Positions 6,150 through 46,514 of a DNA stretch of 64,000 nt are shown piece by piece. Source of the stretch: Kutzneria kofuensis (GTDB lineage: Bacteria > Actinomycetota > Actinomycetes > Mycobacteriales > Pseudonocardiaceae). The position numbers were made by a program, and so were the translations under genes. Numbering within the stretch: the first letter of the stretch is position 1; each line of letters opens with the position of its first letter. The notes beneath the pieces are model-generated. The model ran no database searches. It was given only the letters and a program-made list of their open reading frames with translations, and had not been told where the DNA came from. Location: NCBI RefSeq assembly GCF_014203355.1, contig NZ_JACHIR010000001.1, forward strand, positions 5,024,038 to 5,088,037, given 5' to 3'.

Positions 6150-7313
6150 GTGAACCCCGACTTCGGCACCTATCAGTTGGCCGAGGAGCACGAGGAGCTG
6201 CGGCAGGCGATCCGTGCCCTGGCGGACAAGGAGATCGCGCCGTTCGCGGCCGAGGTCGACGACCAGGAGCGGTTCCCGCGCGAGGCCCTGGACGCGCTGG
6301 TCAAGTCCGGCTTCGCCGCCGTGCACGTGCCCGAGGAGTACGACGGGCAGGGCGCCGACTCGGTCGCCACCTGCATCGTCATCGAGGAGGTCGCGCGGGT
6401 CTGCGCCTCGTCCTCGCTGATCCCGGCCGTGAACAAGCTCGGCACCATGCCGATCATCCTGGCCGCCTCCGACGAGCTGAAGCGGCAGGTGCTGCCCTCG
6501 ATCGCCAGCGGCGAGGCGATGGCCTCGTACGCGCTGAGCGAGCGGGAGGCTGGCAGTGACACCGCGTCCATGAAGACCCGGGCGCGGCGGGACGGCGACA
6601 GCTGGGTGCTCAACGGCACCAAGTGCTGGATCACCAACGCCGGCGAGTCCACCTGGTACACGGTGATGGCCGTGACCGACCCGAACGCCGCCAAGCCGTC
6701 CAACGGCATCTCGGCGTTTGTCGTGCACAAGGACGACCCCGGCTTCTCCGTCGGGGCCAAGGAGCGCAAGCTCGGCATCAAGGGCTCGCCCACGCGGGAG
6801 ATCTACTTCGAGGACTGCACCATTCCCGCCGACCGGATCATCGGCGAGCCCGGCACCGGCCTCAAGACCGCGCTGCGGACCCTCGACCACACCCGTCCCA
6901 CCATCGGCGCCCAGGCCGTGGGCATCGCGCAGGGGGCGCTCGAGGCTGCCATCGCGTACGTCAAGGAGCGCAAGCAGTTCGGCAAGGCCATCGCCGACTT
7001 CCAGGGCGTGCAGTTCATGCTCGCCGACATGGCCATGAAGATCGAGGCCGCCCGGCACATGGTGTACGTCGCCGCCGCCAAGGCCGAGCGGGGTGAGGCC
7101 AACATCGGCTTCATCACCGCCGCGGCCAAGTGCTACGCGTCCGATGTCGCCATGGAGGTCACCACCGACGCCGTGCAGCTCTTCGGCGGCGCCGGCTACA
7201 CCCGGGACTTCCCCGTCGAGCGCATGATGCGCGACGCCAAGATCACTCAGATCTACGAGGGCACCAACCAGATCCAGCGTGTGGTCATGTCCCGCGCCCT
7301 CCTGCGCGGCTGA
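6150..7313 (+). CDS. acyl-CoA dehydrogenase (FadE25-like)
   Basis: A 387-residue flavoenzyme that introduces the alpha-beta double bond in acyl-CoA. It has the FAD/substrate signature ALSEREAGSDTASM, the WITNAGE loop, and the C-terminal QIYEGTNQIQR that carries the catalytic glutamate and the second family signature. The GTG at 6150 has a perfect AGGAGG 6 nt upstream; a reading from 6120 has no ribosome site. It follows purK-purE, the same order as in mycobacteria, and ends at a strong hairpin. Confidence 0.95.
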   Translation: MNPDFGTYQLAEEHEELRQAIRALADKEIAPFAAEVDDQERFPREALDALVKSGFAAVHVPEEYDGQGADSVATCIVIEEVARVCASSSLIPAVNKLGTMPIILAASDELKRQVLPSIASGEAMASYALSEREAGSDTASMKTRARRDGDSWVLNGTKCWITNAGESTWYTVMAVTDPNAAKPSNGISAFVVHKDDPGFSVGAKERKLGIKGSPTREIYFEDCTIPADRIIGEPGTGLKTALRTLDHTRPTIGAQAVGIAQGALEAAIAYVKERKQFGKAIADFQGVQFMLADMAMKIEAARHMVYVAAAKAERGEANIGFITAAAKCYASDVAMEVTTDAVQLFGGAGYTRDFPVERMMRDAKITQIYEGTNQIQRVVMSRALLRG

Positions 7314-7331
7314 CGCGGCATCCAGTCGTGG

Positions 7332-7363
7332 CGCCTGCCCGGTCCCGGACGACCGGGTAGGCG
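7332..7363. terminator. hairpin terminator between convergent genes
   Basis: Arms 7332-7344 and 7351-7363 form a 13-bp stem (one G-U pair) with a 6-nt loop. It can serve the dehydrogenase and, in reverse, the lipoprotein gene. The rest of the 7314-7457 gap is featureless. Confidence 0.75.
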
Positions 7364-7457
7364 TCGCTTCACCGCCAGGGGCCCATCGCCCGTCGGATGA
7401 GCACCCGGCCGCTAACCGTCAGACCGACCGCCAGCGGCAGTGGCCCCACGAGCACTG

Positions 7458-8078
7458 TCAGAAACTCCACTCCCAGCCGCTGTTGTCGACCAGCATCGGC
7501 GGCCGGTACTCCAGGATTCCGTGGGTGTTCCTGCTGTCCAGGACGACCTTGCCGACGTATACCGAGCCCGCGCCCAATGGTTGACTCGGGAATTGCTCGC
7601 GGTCTGACAGACACCCAAACGCGGCGGTACTTGTCAGGTTGGTCTCCGTGACGCCGTCGGGGCCGACGACGGCGAAGTCGGTCGGTGCAACTATCAGGAA
7701 CAACGTCTTGTCCATGGTGACGCTGGTCTTCACGGTCATCGACAACACCACGAAGTGACCGTTCTGCGGTTTTCTTGCGAACTCGGACGTGCATTTGTCG
7801 TCCACAGCGATCGCGTCCACAGTGAAGCTCAGGTCGGGATTAGTCGCATCGTCACCAATGGCCGCCACCTGTCCGATCGCCTTCGGTATCAGGCCCCGCG
7901 GCGAGAGGCTGGACGTGATCTTCTTGGTCGCGCTCGTGGATGTGACCGTCGGGGGCGGCGCGACCGATGCGTCATGCGGCGTGGCCTGTCCTACGACCGG
8001 GAAACCGCATGCGGCAAGAAAGACCGAGCCAATGGCCAGCAGGGTCAGAGTCCGTGGTGTGCTTGTCTTGATCGACAT
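7458..8078 (-). CDS. DUF4352-type secreted lipoprotein
   Basis: A 206-residue protein with a basic N-terminus, a hydrophobic stretch and the lipobox LAAC (Cys24), so it should be lipidated and anchored outside the membrane. After a Thr/Ser/Pro-rich linker, residues about 85-200 have the layout of DUF4352/immunoglobulin-like domains: DLSFTVDAIAV, GHFVVLSMTVKT and the late VGKVVLD segment. Function unknown. The ATG lies 53 nt after a small possible ORF and may share its transcript. Confidence 0.75.
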   Translation of the reverse strand: MSIKTSTPRTLTLLAIGSVFLAACGFPVVGQATPHDASVAPPPTVTSTSATKKITSSLSPRGLIPKAIGQVAAIGDDATNPDLSFTVDAIAVDDKCTSEFARKPQNGHFVVLSMTVKTSVTMDKTLFLIVAPTDFAVVGPDGVTETNLTSTAAFGCLSDREQFPSQPLGAGSVYVGKVVLDSRNTHGILEYRPPMLVDNSGWEWSF

Positions 8079-24506: not shown

Positions 24507-25601
24507 ATGTCGTCCAGCGTCGGACAGCAGGTCAGTGGGGTCGACGCCGTTGTGCTCGTGGGCGGGAAGGGCACCAGACTCCGCCCGCTCACGCTCTCGG
24601 CGCCCAAGCCCATGCTGCCCACCGCGGGGGTGCCGTTCCTGACGCACCTGCTGTCCCGGATCCGGGCCGTCGGCATCACGCACGTGGTGCTCGGCACCTC
24701 GTACAAGGCCGAGGTGTTCGCCGAGTACTTCGGTGACGGCTCCCGGCTCGGGCTGGAGTTGGAGTACGTCGTCGAGGAGGAGCCCCTCGACACCGGCGGC
24801 GGCATCCGCAACGTCGGCGACCGGCTGCGCGAGGACGACGTCATGGTCTTCAACGGCGACATCCTGTCCGGGGTGGACCTGGCCGGCGTCGTCGGCACGC
24901 ACCGTGACAACAACGCCGACGTCACCCTGCACCTCGTGAAGGTCCCCGATCCCCGGGCCTTCGGCTGCGTGCCCACCGACGCCGAGGGGCGCGTCACGGC
25001 GTTCCTGGAGAAGACCGACAATCCGCCGACCGACCAGATCAACGCCGGGTGCTACGTGTTCCGGCGCGAGACCCTGATGACCATCCCCACCGGTCGTCGG
25101 GTGTCCGTCGAACGCGAGACCTTCCCCGGGCTTCTGGCCTCCGGGCACCGGCTGCAGGGCCACGTCGACTCGTCCTACTGGCTCGACCTCGGCACCCCCG
25201 GCGCCTTCGTCCAGGGCTCCGCCGACCTCGTCCGCGGCATCGCCCCCTCGGCGGCCCTGCCCGGCGCCCCCGGCGAGTCCATCGTGCTCGACGGCGCCAC
25301 CGTCGACCCGTCCGCGACGATCACCGGCGGCTCCACCATCGGGGCCGGCTGCGTCGTCGAAGCCGGCGCGGTCGTCGACGGCTCCGTCCTCTTCGACGGC
25401 GCCGTCATCCGCTCCGGCGCCGTTGTCGAACGCACCCTCGTCGGCGCTCGCGCCGTCGTCGGCACCGGCACCGTCCTGCGCGATGTCGTCGTCGGCGACG
25501 ATGCCGTCATCGGCGCCCACTGCGAGCTCCTCCACGGCGCCCGCGTCTGGCCCGGCATCCACCTCCCCGGCACCTCCATCCGCTTCTCCACGGACGCGTA
25601 G
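24507..25601 (+). CDS. manC: mannose-1-phosphate guanylyltransferase (NDP-sugar pyrophosphorylase)
   Basis: A 364-residue enzyme with an N-terminal nucleotidyltransferase domain (AVVLVGGKGTRLRPLTLSAP; KPMLPTAGVPFL; VFNGDILSGVDL) and a C-terminal left-handed beta-helix of hexapeptide repeats (residues about 265-360). It makes GDP-mannose from mannose-1-P, and links to manA/manB further on. By position it matches mycobacterial Rv3264c, which has been annotated both as RmlA2 and ManC/ManB; the sugar specificity is inferred. The ATG at 24507 has GAGGAGG upstream. Confidence 0.85.
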   Translation: MSSSVGQQVSGVDAVVLVGGKGTRLRPLTLSAPKPMLPTAGVPFLTHLLSRIRAVGITHVVLGTSYKAEVFAEYFGDGSRLGLELEYVVEEEPLDTGGGIRNVGDRLREDDVMVFNGDILSGVDLAGVVGTHRDNNADVTLHLVKVPDPRAFGCVPTDAEGRVTAFLEKTDNPPTDQINAGCYVFRRETLMTIPTGRRVSVERETFPGLLASGHRLQGHVDSSYWLDLGTPGAFVQGSADLVRGIAPSAALPGAPGESIVLDGATVDPSATITGGSTIGAGCVVEAGAVVDGSVLFDGAVIRSGAVVERTLVGARAVVGTGTVLRDVVVGDDAVIGAHCELLHGARVWPGIHLPGTSIRFSTDA

Positions 25602-25603
25602 CC

Positions 25604-26686
25604 ATGGCCCCGAGGTTCGACATCACGCGGGTCCGCCTGCGCAACTACAAGAGCATCGAGTCGTGTGATGTCGAACTCGGCCCGCTCACCCTGCTCGTGG
25701 GCCCCAACGGCTCCGGCAAGAGCAACTTCCTCGACGCCTTGCAGTTCGTCGCCGACGCACTGAACACCAACCTGGAGAATGCCCTCCGGGAGCGAGGCGG
25801 ATTCCGCTCGGTGAGCCGCTTCGGCGAGAGCGAAGTCGAAATCGAGATCACTCTTGGTTCTGGCGTGCAAACGCGAGGCTACCGTGTTGTGCTCGCACCG
25901 GTCGATGGCGTTTCGTATCGGGTCGTCAGCGAGGCGTGGAAGTACTCCGATAGTTCGGAATGGTCGGTCGATGTATTTGATGGGCCCGAACATATCGGGC
26001 TGCCACGAGGTCGGATTGGTGAGCGGCATCTTCCCGTTCTGAAGGTGCTGTCAGGATTTCGGTCCTTCAGTCCGATTCCGGAGCAGATGAGGGACATCAG
26101 CCGCCCGGACCTAGGGGACAGGCTGCTCAGGGACGGCTCCAACGCGCCGAACGTGATCGCCAGGCTGGAGTCCCACGATCCCCCCGCGAAACAGTTGGTC
26201 GAGGAATACCTGCGGCTGGTCGTCGATGGGCTGACCGGCGTCGAGTCTCGCCAGATCAGTTCCTGGCGGGCGCTGTTCTTCAAGCAGGAAATCGAAGGGG
26301 TGAGCCAGCCCAGGGAATTCGATGCGCTGTCGATGTCCGACGGCACGTTGCATGCCTTGGGAGTGCTCATCGCGTTGTTCGAGGGCGCTGAGACCGTTGG
26401 GATCGAAGAACCGGAAAGTGGGCTGCATCCTGCTGCCGCGGCCGTGTTGATGGACGCGCTGCGGGACAGCGCCCACCGCCGTCAGGTGATCGTGACGACG
26501 CACAGCCCCGATCTGCTCGATGTGCCGGGCCTCCAGCCGTCCGAAGTGCTTGCCGTGCGCTCTGTTCGCGGCAAGACGGTCATCGGTCGGCTCAACGACG
26601 CCGGAACCTATGCGTTGAAGGAGTCCCTCTACAGCCCAGGTGCGTTGCTGCGAACCAACTACCTGCAACCGGAGACCGACGAATGA
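25604..26686 (+). CDS. ABC/OLD-type AAA ATPase (AAA_21-like)
   Basis: A 360-residue ATPase of the RecF/OLD group. Walker A is GPNGSGKS (residues 33-40), the signature-like MSDGTLHALGVLIAL precedes Walker B VGIEEPESGLHP, and TTHSPDLLD carries the switch histidine. The insert between them has no TOPRIM domain, so the nuclease function would come from the next gene, whose start overlaps this stop (ATGA). Base composition is visibly less GC-rich than the neighbours (53% by hand count in 25921-25980 against about 72% in 25381-25440), suggesting acquisition by transfer. Such ATPases power defence or repair nucleases. Confidence 0.85.
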   Translation: MAPRFDITRVRLRNYKSIESCDVELGPLTLLVGPNGSGKSNFLDALQFVADALNTNLENALRERGGFRSVSRFGESEVEIEITLGSGVQTRGYRVVLAPVDGVSYRVVSEAWKYSDSSEWSVDVFDGPEHIGLPRGRIGERHLPVLKVLSGFRSFSPIPEQMRDISRPDLGDRLLRDGSNAPNVIARLESHDPPAKQLVEEYLRLVVDGLTGVESRQISSWRALFFKQEIEGVSQPREFDALSMSDGTLHALGVLIALFEGAETVGIEEPESGLHPAAAAVLMDALRDSAHRRQVIVTTHSPDLLDVPGLQPSEVLAVRSVRGKTVIGRLNDAGTYALKESLYSPGALLRTNYLQPETDE

Positions 26687-27279
26687 GCCTTCCGGTTGTC
26701 GTGCCCGTCGTCGAAGGTCACGGTGAGAGCACAGCGGTTCCGGTGCTGCTGCGTCGGATGACATGGGAGCTTGGTTGGGAACACCAAGTGGCGCAACCGT
26801 TCCGAGTGCCACGGAGCGAGCTGGCCGACCCGACCAAGCTGAATCGCGCGGTGGCGGTCGCCTCTCGCAACGTTCGAGGACCAGGCGGTGTCCTGGTCCT
26901 GTTCGATGCCGACGACGACTGCCCGGTGGAACTGAACGCGAAGCTTCAGGGCACGGTCTGCGATTCGCGATGCAGGGTGGAGATCGTCGTCGCCAACCGT
27001 GAGTTCGAGGCCTGGTTCCTGGCGTCGATCTCGGCGCTGCGCCAGCACGACGCCGTACAGCCCGACGCGGCCTACGCCGGCGACCCGGAGCAGCGGCGTG
27101 GGGCGAAGGAGCAGCTCACCAAGTTGATGGTGAGTCCGTACCGCGAGGTCAGGCACCAGCCCGCCTTCTGCAGCCTGATCGACCTCGAGACGACGTGGCG
27201 GAACAGCCGGTCGTTCCGGCGGTTGGTGAGTGCGCTGCAACGGTTGCTGGAGGTGGAGCCGCCGCCATGGACGCTGTGA
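26683..27279 (+). CDS. DUF4276 family protein (TOPRIM-like), partner of the ATPase
   Basis: A 198-residue protein. PVVEGHGESTAVPVLLRR (Glu11, Glu15) and LVLFDADDDCP (Asp75, Asp77-79) resemble the Glu and DxD metal-binding motifs of TOPRIM nucleases, and NREFEAWFLAS is a DUF4276 hallmark. By family knowledge, DUF4276 genes sit next to ABC ATPases, as here, with a 4-nt overlap. The likely role is a metal-dependent nuclease or effector controlled by the ATPase; the biochemical activity is inferred. The 3' end overlaps the glycosylase gene by 13 nt. Confidence 0.8.
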   Translation: MSLPVVVPVVEGHGESTAVPVLLRRMTWELGWEHQVAQPFRVPRSELADPTKLNRAVAVASRNVRGPGGVLVLFDADDDCPVELNAKLQGTVCDSRCRVEIVVANREFEAWFLASISALRQHDAVQPDAAYAGDPEQRRGAKEQLTKLMVSPYREVRHQPAFCSLIDLETTWRNSRSFRRLVSALQRLLEVEPPPWTL

Positions 27280-41750: not shown

Positions 41751-43232
41751 ATGCCGGGCAGCGGCCTGTGGCGGACCAAGTCGATCGAGCAGTCGATCGC
41801 CGACACCGACGAGCCGGACACCAAGCTCCGCAAGGATCTCACCGCTTGGGACCTGACCGTGTTCGGCGTGGCCGTGGTGATCGGCGCCGGCATCTTCACC
41901 GTGACGGCCAGCACCGCCGGCAACGTCGCCGGGCCGTCCGTGGTGATCTCCTTTGTCATCGCCGCCATCGCGTGCGGCCTGGCCGCCCTCTGCTACGCCG
42001 AGTTCGCCTCGACCGTGCCGGTGGCCGGTTCCGCGTACACGTTCTCGTACGCCACCTTCGGCGAGTTCGTGGCGTGGATCATCGGCTGGGACCTCGTGCT
42101 GGAGTTCGCCCTCGCCGCCGCCGTCGTGGCCAAGGGCTGGTCGGCCTACCTGTCCCAGGTCCTCGGACTTTTCGGCTTGGACGTGCCGACCGTCGTGTCG
42201 CTCGGTCCCGTCGACTTCGACTGGGGGACCGTGCTGATCGTGCTCGTGCTCGGCACCCTGCTGGCCGTCGGCACCAAGCTGTCGTCCCGCTTCAGCCAGG
42301 TGATCACCGCCATCAAGGTCGCCGTGGTGCTGCTGGTGATCGTCGTCGGCATCGGCTACATCAAGGCCGCCAACTACACCCCGTTCGTGCCGCCCGCCCA
42401 GCCGGCGTCGTCGGGATCCCTGAACCAGTCCCTGTTCTCGTTGATCGCCGGCGGCCAGTCCAGCTCCTTCGGCATCTTCGGCCTGCTCGCGGCGGCGTCC
42501 GTCCTCTTCTTCGCCTTCATCGGCTTCGACATCGTCGCCACCACGGCCGAGGAGACCCGGAACCCTCAGCGCAACGTTCCCCGAGGAATCCTCGGTTCCC
42601 TCGGCATCGTCACCGTTCTCTACGTCGCCGTTTCCCTGGTCGTGACCGGCATGGAGCCGTACACCAAGCTCGCCACCGGGGCCGGCGGCACCAAGAAGAC
42701 CCTTGCCACCGCCTTCGCCGACAACGGCGTGCACTGGGCCGCCACCGTCATCGCCATCGGCGCCCTTGCCGGCCTGACCACCGTCGTCATGGTGCTTCTC
42801 CTCGGACAGACCCGGGTTCTCTTCGCCATGTCCCGTGACGGCCTCATTCCCCGTGGGCTGGCCAAGACCGGCCGCCATGGCACCCCCGTGCGTTCCACCG
42901 TGCTGGTCGTGATCGCCGTTGTCATCGCCGGCGGCTTCTTCCCCTCCGGCGATCTCGAGGAGATGGTCAACGTAGGCACCCTGTTCGCCTTCGTCCTCGT
43001 CTCCCTCGGCGTCATCGTCCTGCGCCGTACGCGCCCCGACCTCCCCCGTGGCTTCCGCACTCCTCTCGTCCCCCTCGTGCCCGTCCTCTCCGTCCTCGCC
43101 TGCCTCTGGCTCATGCTCAACCTCGCCGTCTTCACCTGGGTCCGCTTCGTCATCTGGATGGCCATCGGCGTCGCCGTCTACTTCGCCTACGGCATCAGGA
43201 AATCCACCCTCGCCACCGCCGCAAAGGTGTGA
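41751..43232 (+). CDS. APC-family amino acid permease (cationic amino acid type)
   Basis: A 493-residue polytopic protein with about 12 membrane helices. RKDLTAWDLTVFGVAVVIGA and GIFTVTASTAGNVAGPSVVI form the unwound substrate-binding helix I, and FFAFIGFDIVATTAEETRNP is the helix VI consensus. The N-terminal KSIEQSIADTDEPDTKLRKD is typical of CAT/YfnA-type transporters. The ATG at 41751 has GGGAGGG 3 nt upstream. By synteny it matches Rv3253c. It ends at a strong terminator. Confidence 0.93.
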   Translation: MPGSGLWRTKSIEQSIADTDEPDTKLRKDLTAWDLTVFGVAVVIGAGIFTVTASTAGNVAGPSVVISFVIAAIACGLAALCYAEFASTVPVAGSAYTFSYATFGEFVAWIIGWDLVLEFALAAAVVAKGWSAYLSQVLGLFGLDVPTVVSLGPVDFDWGTVLIVLVLGTLLAVGTKLSSRFSQVITAIKVAVVLLVIVVGIGYIKAANYTPFVPPAQPASSGSLNQSLFSLIAGGQSSSFGIFGLLAAASVLFFAFIGFDIVATTAEETRNPQRNVPRGILGSLGIVTVLYVAVSLVVTGMEPYTKLATGAGGTKKTLATAFADNGVHWAATVIAIGALAGLTTVVMVLLLGQTRVLFAMSRDGLIPRGLAKTGRHGTPVRSTVLVVIAVVIAGGFFPSGDLEEMVNVGTLFAFVLVSLGVIVLRRTRPDLPRGFRTPLVPLVPVLSVLACLWLMLNLAVFTWVRFVIWMAIGVAVYFAYGIRKSTLATAAKV

Positions 43233-43237
43233 TTCCC

Positions 43238-43274
43238 CGGCGTGTGGCCGTCCTCACCCGACGGCCACACGCCG
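43238..43274. terminator. hairpin terminator of the permease
   Basis: A perfect 15-bp stem, arms 43238-43252 and 43260-43274, with a 7-nt loop, 6 nt after the permease stop. Confidence 0.85.
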
Positions 43275-43348
43275 TTGCCGTATCTGGCCCGTCTGCGGCT
43301 GGTACTTGTTGCTCGCGTTGTCATCTCGTTTCTCTTCTGGGAGAAGAT

Positions 43349-43888
43349 GTGGGCTCACCGATGCTAGGAAAATTCGGGCTGCTCGGGTGCGGTGTTGTCA
43401 TCGCCGGCTGTCTGACCGCGTGCGGTTCCTCGTCGATTGCCGGCGAGCCGGGTCCCAATACCTCCCTCGCCTTGTCGGGTGACGCGAAGTGGGCCGGTGT
43501 CGACCCGTGTTCGCTCCTCACCGTCGATGAGTTGCGCCAGAACGGCGTCAAGACGCTCGGGAAGCCGCTGAACGTGGCGGGCGAGACCGGCTGTGACTTC
43601 CTCAGCGATTCCGATGTCATCGGCCGCGCGATCAACGTCACCAAGTCATCCAACTCCCCGGATTCCTACTTGAGCCGCCCCGGCGACTTTGTCTACATAG
43701 AGTCGAATTCGGTCAACGGGCGACCGGGTTTCCAGACCCGGATCTCGAAGAGCAACGACGAGTGCTCCCAGTACATCGCCGTCGGCTCCGGTGTCGTGTC
43801 CGTCGCCACCACCCGCGACCGATCCGGCGACCCCTGCGGTGCCGCCCTCACGCTCGCGCAGCTGATCGAGCCCCGTCTGCCGAAGTAG
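43349..43888 (+). CDS. DUF3558 family lipoprotein (copy 1)
   Basis: A 179-residue secreted lipoprotein: signal with lipobox LTAC (Cys25), then a DUF3558 domain with paired cysteines (VDPCSLLTVDELRQNGV, ETGCDFLSD, NDECSQYIAVGSG, GDPCGAAL) and the ending EPRLPK. The GTG at 43349 is 5 nt after GGAG; an ATG at 43361 is an alternative. Function of DUF3558 is unknown; these lipoproteins are expanded in Pseudonocardiaceae. It is a paralogue of the protein at 44472. Confidence 0.85.
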   Translation: MGSPMLGKFGLLGCGVVIAGCLTACGSSSIAGEPGPNTSLALSGDAKWAGVDPCSLLTVDELRQNGVKTLGKPLNVAGETGCDFLSDSDVIGRAINVTKSSNSPDSYLSRPGDFVYIESNSVNGRPGFQTRISKSNDECSQYIAVGSGVVSVATTRDRSGDPCGAALTLAQLIEPRLPK

Positions 43889-44046
43889 CTCGAGTACCAC
43901 CCGCCGGCACCCGGCCCGGCTGTGGTAGCCGACCTGCCGCTCGAGCCACTCGAAATAAGCCCCACGGACTGATTGGAACCGGTCGCTCGGTCCTACCGTC
44001 TCAGGTACCGTGCTGGGTTGAAGTCTGACTAGCGGGAGGGTGGGTC

Positions 44047-44475
44047 ATGCTGGCGCCGGACGGTGGAGGGGCCGAGGGCTTCGCGGGTGCGGCACTCGGG
44101 GTCGCCGCGTTGGAGCAGAATTACGTCAACTTGAAGGGCGCCGTCGACTCCGGCCAGGTCTCGATCACGCCGGACGCCGCGGCCAACGCGGCGAAGGCCT
44201 GCCGCGACCAGAAGGACGACTTCGTCCGCTTTCGAGACCAGGCCCAGCAGCTTGCCCGCCACGCTCAGACCCTCCGCATGGGCGATTGCGGCGAGGGCAT
44301 ATCAATGCGCGGCGCTTTCCAGAAAAAAGCGGAAGGCGGGCAGAATTCGGCGTACGATCTCTTCACGCAGGCGGCGGAGATCATGGAGAACATGGCCAAA
44401 GCGTACGAGGCTGCCGGCAAGATGTATCATGAGACCGATCAGGCTAATGCGCAGGCTTTCAAGGGGAAGATGTGA
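44047..44475 (+). CDS. small helical ESX-substrate-like protein
   Basis: A 142-residue protein without a signal peptide. Residues about 20-75 and 95-140 are strongly helical (AALEQNYVNLKGAVDSGQ, AYDLFTQAAEIMENMAKAY) like the two-helix WXG100 fold, but there is no WxG turn; the middle carries GDCGEGISMRGAFQ. It is predicted, not shown, to be exported by an ESX/type VII system, given the EspG and PPE-like neighbours. The stop overlaps the next lipoprotein's GTG (GTGA). The preceding 158-nt gap (43889-44046) shows nothing I can name. Confidence 0.65.
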   Translation: MLAPDGGGAEGFAGAALGVAALEQNYVNLKGAVDSGQVSITPDAAANAAKACRDQKDDFVRFRDQAQQLARHAQTLRMGDCGEGISMRGAFQKKAEGGQNSAYDLFTQAAEIMENMAKAYEAAGKMYHETDQANAQAFKGKM

Positions 44476-45017
44476 CCAAGTCTTTTCGTGTCGTGGTCGG
44501 GATCGGTTTGATCACGGTCTCCGGCGTTTTTCTTGCCGCCTGCAACAATGGCGTTTCCGGGGATCCGGGTCCGGCGACCGGTGCGAGTACGTCGGCGAAT
44601 TCCGGTGGCGACGCCGCGCTGAACAAGCTGGACCCGTGCACCCTGCTCACCACCCAGGAGTTGCAGCAGTACCAGGTGCGGACCAAGGGTGAGCCAATGA
44701 ACTCGTCGGACGAGCAGGGCTGTGACTTCCTCGGTTCGCCGGACAGTCTCTCCCGGGGGATCAACCTCACGAAGTCGAAGGACTCCGTCGCGGACTATGT
44801 GCGCCGGAAGGACTCCTACGTCAAGTTTGCGACGAACAGCGTGAACGGCCGCGACGCCGCCCAGGTGCAGATTTCCGCATCGAACACGGAATGCTCGCAG
44901 ATCATCGCAGTCGGGTCTGGCACCGTGAGTGTCGCCGTGACCGGTGACAAATCGGGCGATCCGTGTGGGGACGCGCTGCAGATCGCGAAAGTCGTCGAGC
45001 CGCGGCTGCCGAAGTAA
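44472..45017 (+). CDS. DUF3558 family lipoprotein (copy 2)
   Basis: A 181-residue lipoprotein with signal and lipobox LAAC (Cys24), a Ser/Thr-rich linker and the DUF3558 domain (LDPCTLLTTQELQQYQV, EQGCDFLGS, NTECSQIIAVGSGTVSV, GDPCGDALQ). It ends EPRLPK exactly like the 43349 protein, so the two are paralogues flanking the small helical gene. The GTG start overlaps that gene's stop. Confidence 0.88.
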   Translation: MTKSFRVVVGIGLITVSGVFLAACNNGVSGDPGPATGASTSANSGGDAALNKLDPCTLLTTQELQQYQVRTKGEPMNSSDEQGCDFLGSPDSLSRGINLTKSKDSVADYVRRKDSYVKFATNSVNGRDAAQVQISASNTECSQIIAVGSGTVSVAVTGDKSGDPCGDALQIAKVVEPRLPK

Positions 45018-45032
45018 GTAGGGGGAGGGGAC

Positions 45033-46514
45033 ATGAGTTGGCTCGGGGATGCCGTTGACAAGGTCGCCGACGCTGGTGCCTCGGTGCTGGGGATCGATGG
45101 CCCGTCGCAGAGCAACACCAACCAGCAGCAGTACAACCAGGCGAACCAACGGGGGAACCAGCAGCGGGGCCAGTACAACAACCAGGCCAAGCAGTACGAG
45201 CAGCAGGGCGGCGGCGGATACGACCCGGCCGGGATCACCAAGCAAACCAACTGGGCATCGATGGATCACGGCCAGATCAAGCAGATCTCGGACGGCCTTG
45301 ATCCGGGACCGATCGGCGAACACGGCAAGCAGTGGGCCGATCTCGGCACGGCCCTGACGTCGAGCACCACCAAGTTCAACAGCGCCATCAACAGCGCCCT
45401 GAACGGGAACTGGACGGGCGCGGCTGGCGATGCGGCATTGCAGGCGCCGCAAGGGATCGTGAGCTGGGGCGAGGACTTCAGTGCCCAGATGCAGGCGGCC
45501 GGGGCGCAGGCCCAGTCGGTGTCTGCGACCGCCGAGCAGGTGAAGGCGACGGTGCCGCCGCCCAAGGACTTCAGCTGGGGCAAGACGATGCTGAGCGGGA
45601 TCGCGTTCGGGCCGTTCGGGGCGGGGGCCAGTGCGTACGCCCAGCACCAGGAGCAGCAGGAGGCCAAGGAGCAGGCCGTCCGGGTGATGAGCACCGTGTA
45701 CTCGCCGAACTACATGAACGCGGCGAACACGATGCCGGCGTTCACGGGGCCGACGGACCCGACGCAGCCGCCGGAGAAGCCGAACCCGCCGATCATCGGG
45801 CCGCCCCCGATCATCGGGCCGCCGCCGGGCGGCCACCCGCCGGTCGGGCACAACCAGCAGTACAACCCGAACCAGGTGGGCAACCCGAACGGGTCGAACA
45901 ACCAGCAGCAGAACCCGCCGCAGCTGCCGCCGGACCGGCCGCCGGTGTACGACCCGACGCAGGACCCGAACAACCCGCTGTACCACAACCGGCCGCCGAC
46001 GAGCACGACGACGCAGAACTCGAACTGGCCGCCGATCGGCCAGGACATGAACGGGAACTGGAACTCGCCGAACTACCCGGGTACGGGCGGCGGAGGCCGG
46101 GGCGGCGGCGGTGGTGGAGGTGGCGGGGGCTTCGTGCCGCCGATGGGCACCTCCGGCTTCGGTGGCGGCGGAGGCGGCGGCTACGGGGGAGGCGGCGCGG
46201 GCGGCTTCGGCGCGGGCGGGGCCAAGGGCTTCGGGGCGGGAGCGACGGCAGGGGCGAACGCCCGGCCGGGCGCTGGCGCCGCGGCGGGCCTCGGTGCGGA
46301 GGAAGAGGGCGCGATGCGCGGCGGCGGCGGCATGGCCGGCCGGCCGGGCGCGGCCGGCGCGGCGGGAGCGGGCGGTATGGGCGCCGGCGGCCGCGGCGGC
46401 AAGAAGGAGGAGGACAAGGAGCACAAGTCCGCCGCCTACCTGGTCAACGACGACAACGCGAACGACATCGTGGGCGACCTGCCGCCGACGGTTCCGCCGG
46501 TGATCGGCGGCTGA
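45033..46514 (+). CDS. PPE-like protein with Pro/Asn- and Gly-rich C-terminus
   Basis: A 493-residue protein. MSWLGDAVDKVADAGASVLG begins a helical region; residues about 70-200 (WASMDHGQIKQISDGLDPG; LNGNWTGAAGDAALQAPQGI) match the Pseudonocardiaceae PPE-like/WXG-type domain, with a W-x-G turn in GNWTGAAG. Residues about 235-345 are Pro/Asn-rich, and 345-465 are Gly-rich with runs of glycine. A conserved-looking tail (YLVNDDNANDIVGDL) closes the protein. No signal peptide, which fits ESX export with EspG. The ribosome site GGGGAGGGG precedes the ATG. Confidence 0.75.
   Translation: MSWLGDAVDKVADAGASVLGIDGPSQSNTNQQQYNQANQRGNQQRGQYNNQAKQYEQQGGGGYDPAGITKQTNWASMDHGQIKQISDGLDPGPIGEHGKQWADLGTALTSSTTKFNSAINSALNGNWTGAAGDAALQAPQGIVSWGEDFSAQMQAAGAQAQSVSATAEQVKATVPPPKDFSWGKTMLSGIAFGPFGAGASAYAQHQEQQEAKEQAVRVMSTVYSPNYMNAANTMPAFTGPTDPTQPPEKPNPPIIGPPPIIGPPPGGHPPVGHNQQYNPNQVGNPNGSNNQQQNPPQLPPDRPPVYDPTQDPNNPLYHNRPPTSTTTQNSNWPPIGQDMNGNWNSPNYPGTGGGGRGGGGGGGGGGFVPPMGTSGFGGGGGGGYGGGGAGGFGAGGAKGFGAGATAGANARPGAGAAAGLGAEEEGAMRGGGGMAGRPGAAGAAGAGGMGAGGRGGKKEEDKEHKSAAYLVNDDNANDIVGDLPPTVPPVIGG

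Follow-up and report, generated by a model that had tools for sequence, protein, structure and literature searches.

A HEC-01-type ATPase and DUF4276 gene pair of Kutzneria kofuensis: a probable split OLD/PARIS-like defence module in a variable slot between manC and alkA

The 64,000-nucleotide stretch of Kutzneria kofuensis DNA analyzed here (contig NZ_JACHIR010000001.1, positions 5,024,038 to 5,088,037; "the window") contains two overlapping genes, one for an ABC-type ATPase and one for a DUF4276 protein, that match the catalogued defence candidate HEC-01. We read the pair, with a probability of roughly 70%, as a split sensor-effector defence module resembling OLD and PARIS. In the genus it is accessory and sits at a fixed slot between a manC-like and an alkA-like gene. 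What is new is local, namely the different states of this slot among the genus genomes and the mosaic structure of the ATPase gene. The pair and its flanks, in window coordinates, are as follows.

24507..25601, + strand: left flank, manC-like mannose-1-phosphate guanylyltransferase (NF052502, 1.4e-184)
25604..26686, + strand: ATPase open reading frame (ORF), HEC-01A, ABC-type (AAA_21/OLD-like), proposed sensor; ATG at 25604, TGA at 26684-26686, 360 residues
26683..27279, + strand: DUF4276 ORF, HEC-01B, proposed TOPRIM nuclease effector; 198 residues
27267..28148, + strand: right flank, alkA-like DNA glycosylase (HhH-GPD 0.0052 and PRK10308 4.6e-05, both below cut-off)

The ORF coordinates agree with the 4-nucleotide overlap (ATGA) described in an earlier note on this DNA, and the position of the pair between manC and the alkA-like gene bears out its description as an insertion in a cell-wall gene block. 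The ATPase gene starts 2 nucleotides past the manC stop codon, and the alkA-like gene starts inside the last 13 nucleotides of the DUF4276 gene, whose stop codon in turn falls among the opening codons of alkA. A sigma-70-type promoter was not found between 24300 and 28300, with a scan poorly suited to such base composition, and Rfam gave no match between 23000 and 30000. The pair is probably read through from manC.

The earlier note had proposed an undescribed system. That part of its interpretation has to be given up, because PADLOC-DB already lists the pair as HEC-01A and HEC-01B; a TOPRIM-like effector, an OLD-type ATPase and an accessory insertion are the parts that stand. Both proteins match the HEC-01 models nearly full length, the ATPase to PDLC04178 (1.7e-118, residues 3-359) and the DUF4276 protein to PDLC04200 (8e-73), and the assignment follows from the match to both component models together with the overlap of the genes, not from PADLOC's own system rule. 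The window copy differs from the catalogued candidate in its location in a cell-wall operon and in having solo-ATPase relatives in the same slot. HEC stands for Hma-embedded candidate, a name from which an origin inside Hma systems is taken, and the source is taken to be a preprint by Payne et al. from 2024 (10.1101/2024.01.29.577857). DUF4276 is named in no paper of the literature searched, and a search on hypervariable ATPase-TOPRIM sensors found nothing. The available portions of four papers (PMC12839542, PMC12255303, PMC13092281, PMC10568477) mention neither DUF4276 nor HEC-01. Several HECs, including HEC-06, have shown antiviral activity according to the accessible part of PMC12988326, which does not name HEC-01 there, and the accessible part of a report on Desulfovibrio piger gives HEC-01 among the systems predicted, without test, by DefenseFinder and Bakta (PMC12724379).

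The ATPase belongs to AAA_21 (Pfam, E 6.6e-31) and is also matched by the PADLOC AbiLi model (1.4e-24). Its predicted structure has a predicted local distance difference test score (pLDDT) of 90.5, with the lowest values in residues 121-140. Foldseek placed PtuA chains first (E 1.9e-14), and OLD (6p74, 4.2e-13) and the SMC/Rad50 heads were also found; together with the PADLOC models this assigns the protein to the OLD/PARIS/Septu type, in keeping with the OLD-like ATPase of the earlier note. OLD-type ATPases are marked by a Walker B glutamate and a D-loop histidine (PMC7049728). The Walker A and Walker B/switch-histidine motifs that the note had called intact are present as GPNGSGKS, IEEPESGLHP and TTHS. 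The signature Asp246 is Asp in 61, Glu in 13 and a gap in 2 of 76 relatives.

25700..25723, + strand: Walker A GPNGSGKS, residues 33-40, seen in the sequence; K39 and S40 in 75/75 readable relatives
26405..26431, + strand: Walker B and D-loop EEPESGLHP, residues 268-276; E268, E269 and H275 in 75/75 readable relatives

The DUF4276 protein matches PF14103 above the curated cut-off (E 6.5e-13), and its predicted model (pLDDT 93.7) has OLD C-terminal regions as its first four Foldseek matches, as expected from the TOPRIM-like effector of the earlier note. TOPRIM similarity appears in this fold search and not in profiles: a PDB profile search with the DUF4276 alignment returned 0 sequences at E<=1. 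There was no match in NCBIfam or PHROGs, RloB scored E 0.24 (12 bits, below the cut-off of 31.5), and the AriB model was absent among the 14 PADLOC families matching the protein at E<=1. The Glu, DxD and NREFEAWF motifs noted earlier were recovered, the last at residues 105-112. In the counts below, the conservation of the Glu and DxD positions was partly seeded by the scan that collected the relatives.

26713..26727, + strand: TOPRIM motif 1, E11 and E15 (EGHGE); E11 in 76/76, E15 replaced by D in 2 of 76 (E in 74)
26905..26919, + strand: TOPRIM DxD, residues 75-79 (DADDD); D75 in 76/76, D77 in 75/76
26995..27009, + strand: NREFE, residues 105-109, proposed second metal ligands; E107 in 76/76, E109 in 75/76
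27106..27108, + strand: K142, proposed to correspond to the catalytic Lys of OLD; 74/76

The protein thus has a TOPRIM-like predicted fold in which the catalytic positions are kept, and is a putative nuclease.

Scanning contigs for the DUF4276 protein yielded 93 relatives, of which 80 were kept, with pairing decided by motif and frame checks of the upstream ORFs. A P-loop ATPase ORF ends at the start of DUF4276 in 76 of the 80 loci, with the 4-nucleotide overlap in 64 of these. Among the four unpaired loci, the sequence ends 270 and 260 bp upstream of DUF4276 in L066 and L113, and L124 (702 bp of upstream sequence) has an ATPase fragment by tblastn; L125, in 10 kb of sequence, lacks an ATPase motif in the 2.2 kb upstream. 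By record title, the hosts include Actinomycetota, Proteobacteria, Chloroflexi, Planctomycetota, Acidobacteria and others. The genome of the window has a single DUF4276 match. Within the family to which that genome belongs, a match occurs in 73 of 390 genomes, 66 of them over the cut-off, and in a set of 33 loci including that of G002, an upstream same-strand P-loop and (E/D)EPE...HP were judged by eye to be present in all 33. The window protein matches only two of these loci at E<0.001, L142 (from G002, 80%) and L141 (30%), most of the 33 being of another DUF4276 branch, while 40-46% matches occur in distant phyla. This patchiness fits horizontal spread.

The search of viral contigs gave 83 pattern stretches, none of them a DUF4276 relative, and among phage records there was one match, of 36%, in an unannotated faecal record. 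A neighbour test for defence islands used PADLOC, at 1e-15, to compare the 117 nearest ORFs with 97 that lie over 5.5 kb away, and the counts per family are those among the 25 commonest families. The near set had matches to 116 families, with mad2 in 6 of the 117 ORFs, a type I methyltransferase in 3, and HmaB and HEC-03B in 2 each; the far set had matches to 74 families, with mad3 and PD-T4-6 in 3 each of the 97. No common Pfam partner was seen near the pair, the commonest family being present in 5 of 117 ORFs.

The slot was surveyed in 120 relatives. The manC and alkA-like genes are adjacent on one contig and strand in 61, and both are present without being adjacent in 11 more. Of these 61, 53 have a gap of -2 to 164 bp between the two genes; the gap is 415 bp in G076, where the contig is short and the alkA match incomplete, and more than 900 bp in seven. 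These seven comprise G000 and G002, which have the pair, G003 and G004, which have the ATPase alone, and G016, G034 and G039, which have other cargo. Among the seven genomes of the genus, two have the pair at the slot, two the solo ATPase and three neither. The earlier note's suspicion of a transferred or accessory pair agrees with its presence in only two of the seven, universal conservation at the locus not being observed. PF14103 was not found anywhere in the genomes of G003, G004 and G005; a match elsewhere in the genome occurs in G001 (below cut-off) and G006.

Mobile-element ends at the slot were inspected by eye only. CCATGG stands at both junctions in the window and was considered as a short repeat guiding insertion, but it is not at both junctions in G002, G003 or G004, and the idea was therefore dropped. 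Just past the manC stop codon in the empty slot of G006 (L009) there is, by eye, a long near-perfect inverted repeat. As for the other cargo, the slot of G034 (L047, 2237-5557) has two minus-strand ORFs, SUKH-like by eye; that of G039 (L048, 2102-3217) has one minus-strand ORF, phospholipase D-like by eye; and that of G016 (L046, 2210-3426) has 1.26 kb of sequence in which no clear ORF is seen.

The solo ATPases have open reading frames of 309 (G003) and 328 (G004) residues, and they still match HEC-01A best (1.1e-93 and 1.5e-90). A pseudogene reading was rejected, since the ORFs are open in both paired and both solo genomes. The solo forms have ENPE at Walker B instead of the EEPE of every readable paired relative (Glu269 to Asn), N or T in place of the signature Asp246, and lack about 22 residues near positions 210-235. 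The ENPE motif could mean poor hydrolysis, judging from the sequence.

The ATPase gene is a mosaic in the four genus genomes that carry it.

25604..25783, + strand: 5' block (codons 1-60) of the ATPase gene, containing Walker A; 93.3-96.1% nucleotide identity in the six pairs of G000, G002, G003 and G004
25844..26053, + strand: divergent central part, alignment columns 80-150; 39-52% nucleotide identity in 5/6 genome pairs, 75% between G003 and G004

After column 150 the identity is 83% between G000 and G002, 68% between G003 and G004, and 57-61% between the paired and solo types. A maximum chi-square scan put a break at codon column 58-80 in 6/6 pairs (permutation p 0.0005-0.001), and four-fold sites are 76-91% identical in codons 1-60 and 34-56% identical later (Fisher p 0.0085 to 8.9e-07), the six pairs being drawn from four sequences and not independent. 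Set beside these values, manC and alkA are 70-78% identical in five genomes, which indicates that the distal part of the ATPase gene predates the divergence of the species, unlike its front part. Selection on the P-loop end alone does not account for the synonymous sites, and exchange by recombination is the simplest reading of these alignments, although four sequences are few.

It is possible, though less likely than not, that the mosaic arose without recombination, from a functionally frozen N-terminus while the remainder drifted fast; this alternative bears on how the gene evolved and not on its function. Residues 1-60, which hold Walker A, are 98-100% identical among the four sequences, as such a history would predict, but the shift at codon 60 extends to four-fold sites, and the distal part predates the split. 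The mosaic fits the swapping of parts of sensor and effector at one constant location. Extending this, we offer the rather doubtful conjecture that cassettes are exchanged at the manC-alkA slot in the genus, with manC and the near-invariant first ~60 ATPase codons as the left homology arm, alkA as the right, and the sensor parts and effector swapped as a block. One product, the effector-less ATPase with its altered Glu269 and Asp246, may then be a hydrolysis-poor regulator, a decoy or a different defence ATPase, and not a relic.

In the proposed defence module, the ATPase would act as the sensor, with ATP binding leading to oligomerization and so to the holding or guarding of the DUF4276 protein. 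A phage trigger would release or activate the latter, a putative small TOPRIM two-metal nuclease that may nick a vital nucleic acid, either tRNA as AriB does or DNA as OLD and GajA do, and the cell would be arrested or die before phage maturation. PMC12409363 describes tRNA cleavage by AriB once freed from AriA, and DNA cleavage in vitro by OLD and GajA. PARIS, with ATPase and Toprim as separate genes, is proposed as a fourth OLD class in the available part of PMC10568477.

A parallel in architecture is PARIS, whose AriA ATPase and AriB TOPRIM protein are encoded by separate genes as in HEC-01, although the window DUF4276 protein has no AriB model match. With OLD and Gabija GajA the pair shares the Walker B glutamate, the D-loop histidine and a TOPRIM-like fold with its catalytic set, but it consists of two proteins instead of one chain, and the next gene is alkA-like and not a helicase. 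Septu and retron PtuA is the best Foldseek match of the ATPase, whereas the partner in the window is a TOPRIM-like DUF4276 protein (PF14103) and not the HNH protein PtuB. AbiLii is RloB-like; the AbiLi model matches the ATPase, but the DUF4276 protein, below the RloB cut-off, does not qualify as an RloB-type partner.

The same architecture would serve a toxin-antitoxin-like or plasmid-maintenance module, in which the ATPase neutralizes a TOPRIM RNase and what is gained is stable maintenance of the cargo, not phage defence. Three plasmid records, all linear Streptomyces plasmids (L137, L138 and L139), carry the pair, with transposase genes within 6 kb on two of them and, on one, a fic-type toxin gene at a distance of about 0.8 kb. 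We nevertheless consider this quite unlikely for the window copy, as the slot copies in the genus are chromosomal and leave no trace in close relatives that lack them, and the solo ATPases persist without an effector. The adjacent alkA-like glycosylase might suggest a DNA-repair or maintenance pair, a RecF/Rad50-like head with a TOPRIM protein. This is very improbable, given that 108 of 120 relatives have the alkA-like gene but only 3 of 120 have a protein related to the window DUF4276, and that the pair has other neighbours on plasmids.

The base composition of the pair is 64.1% guanine plus cytosine (GC), compared with a mean of 71.0% (standard deviation 2.55) over 312 windows of equal length, only 2 of which are as low. 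Composition is therefore non-uniform, as had been suspected; the local value of 53% given earlier for 25921-25980 was measured as 53.3%, and the first 240 nucleotides of the ATPase gene are already at 64.2%. Low GC is not unique to the pair, as windows at or below 66% also start at 6601-7601 and 42801-44401. The stretch 42801-46511 contains two DUF3558 ORFs (43229-43885 and 44472-45014) and a PPE-family ORF (45033-46511), and a minus-strand ORF at 7461-8078, in the other low-GC stretch, has no Pfam match at 1e-4.

For the family, DUF4276 gains a predicted fold and a catalytic set, and HEC-01 may be tied to the logic of OLD and PARIS, an ATPase sensor with a TOPRIM effector. For the genus, seven sister genomes in which one slot is occupied by the pair, occupied by an ATPase without effector, or empty form a natural series in which the ATPase alone and the diversification of the sensor can be followed.
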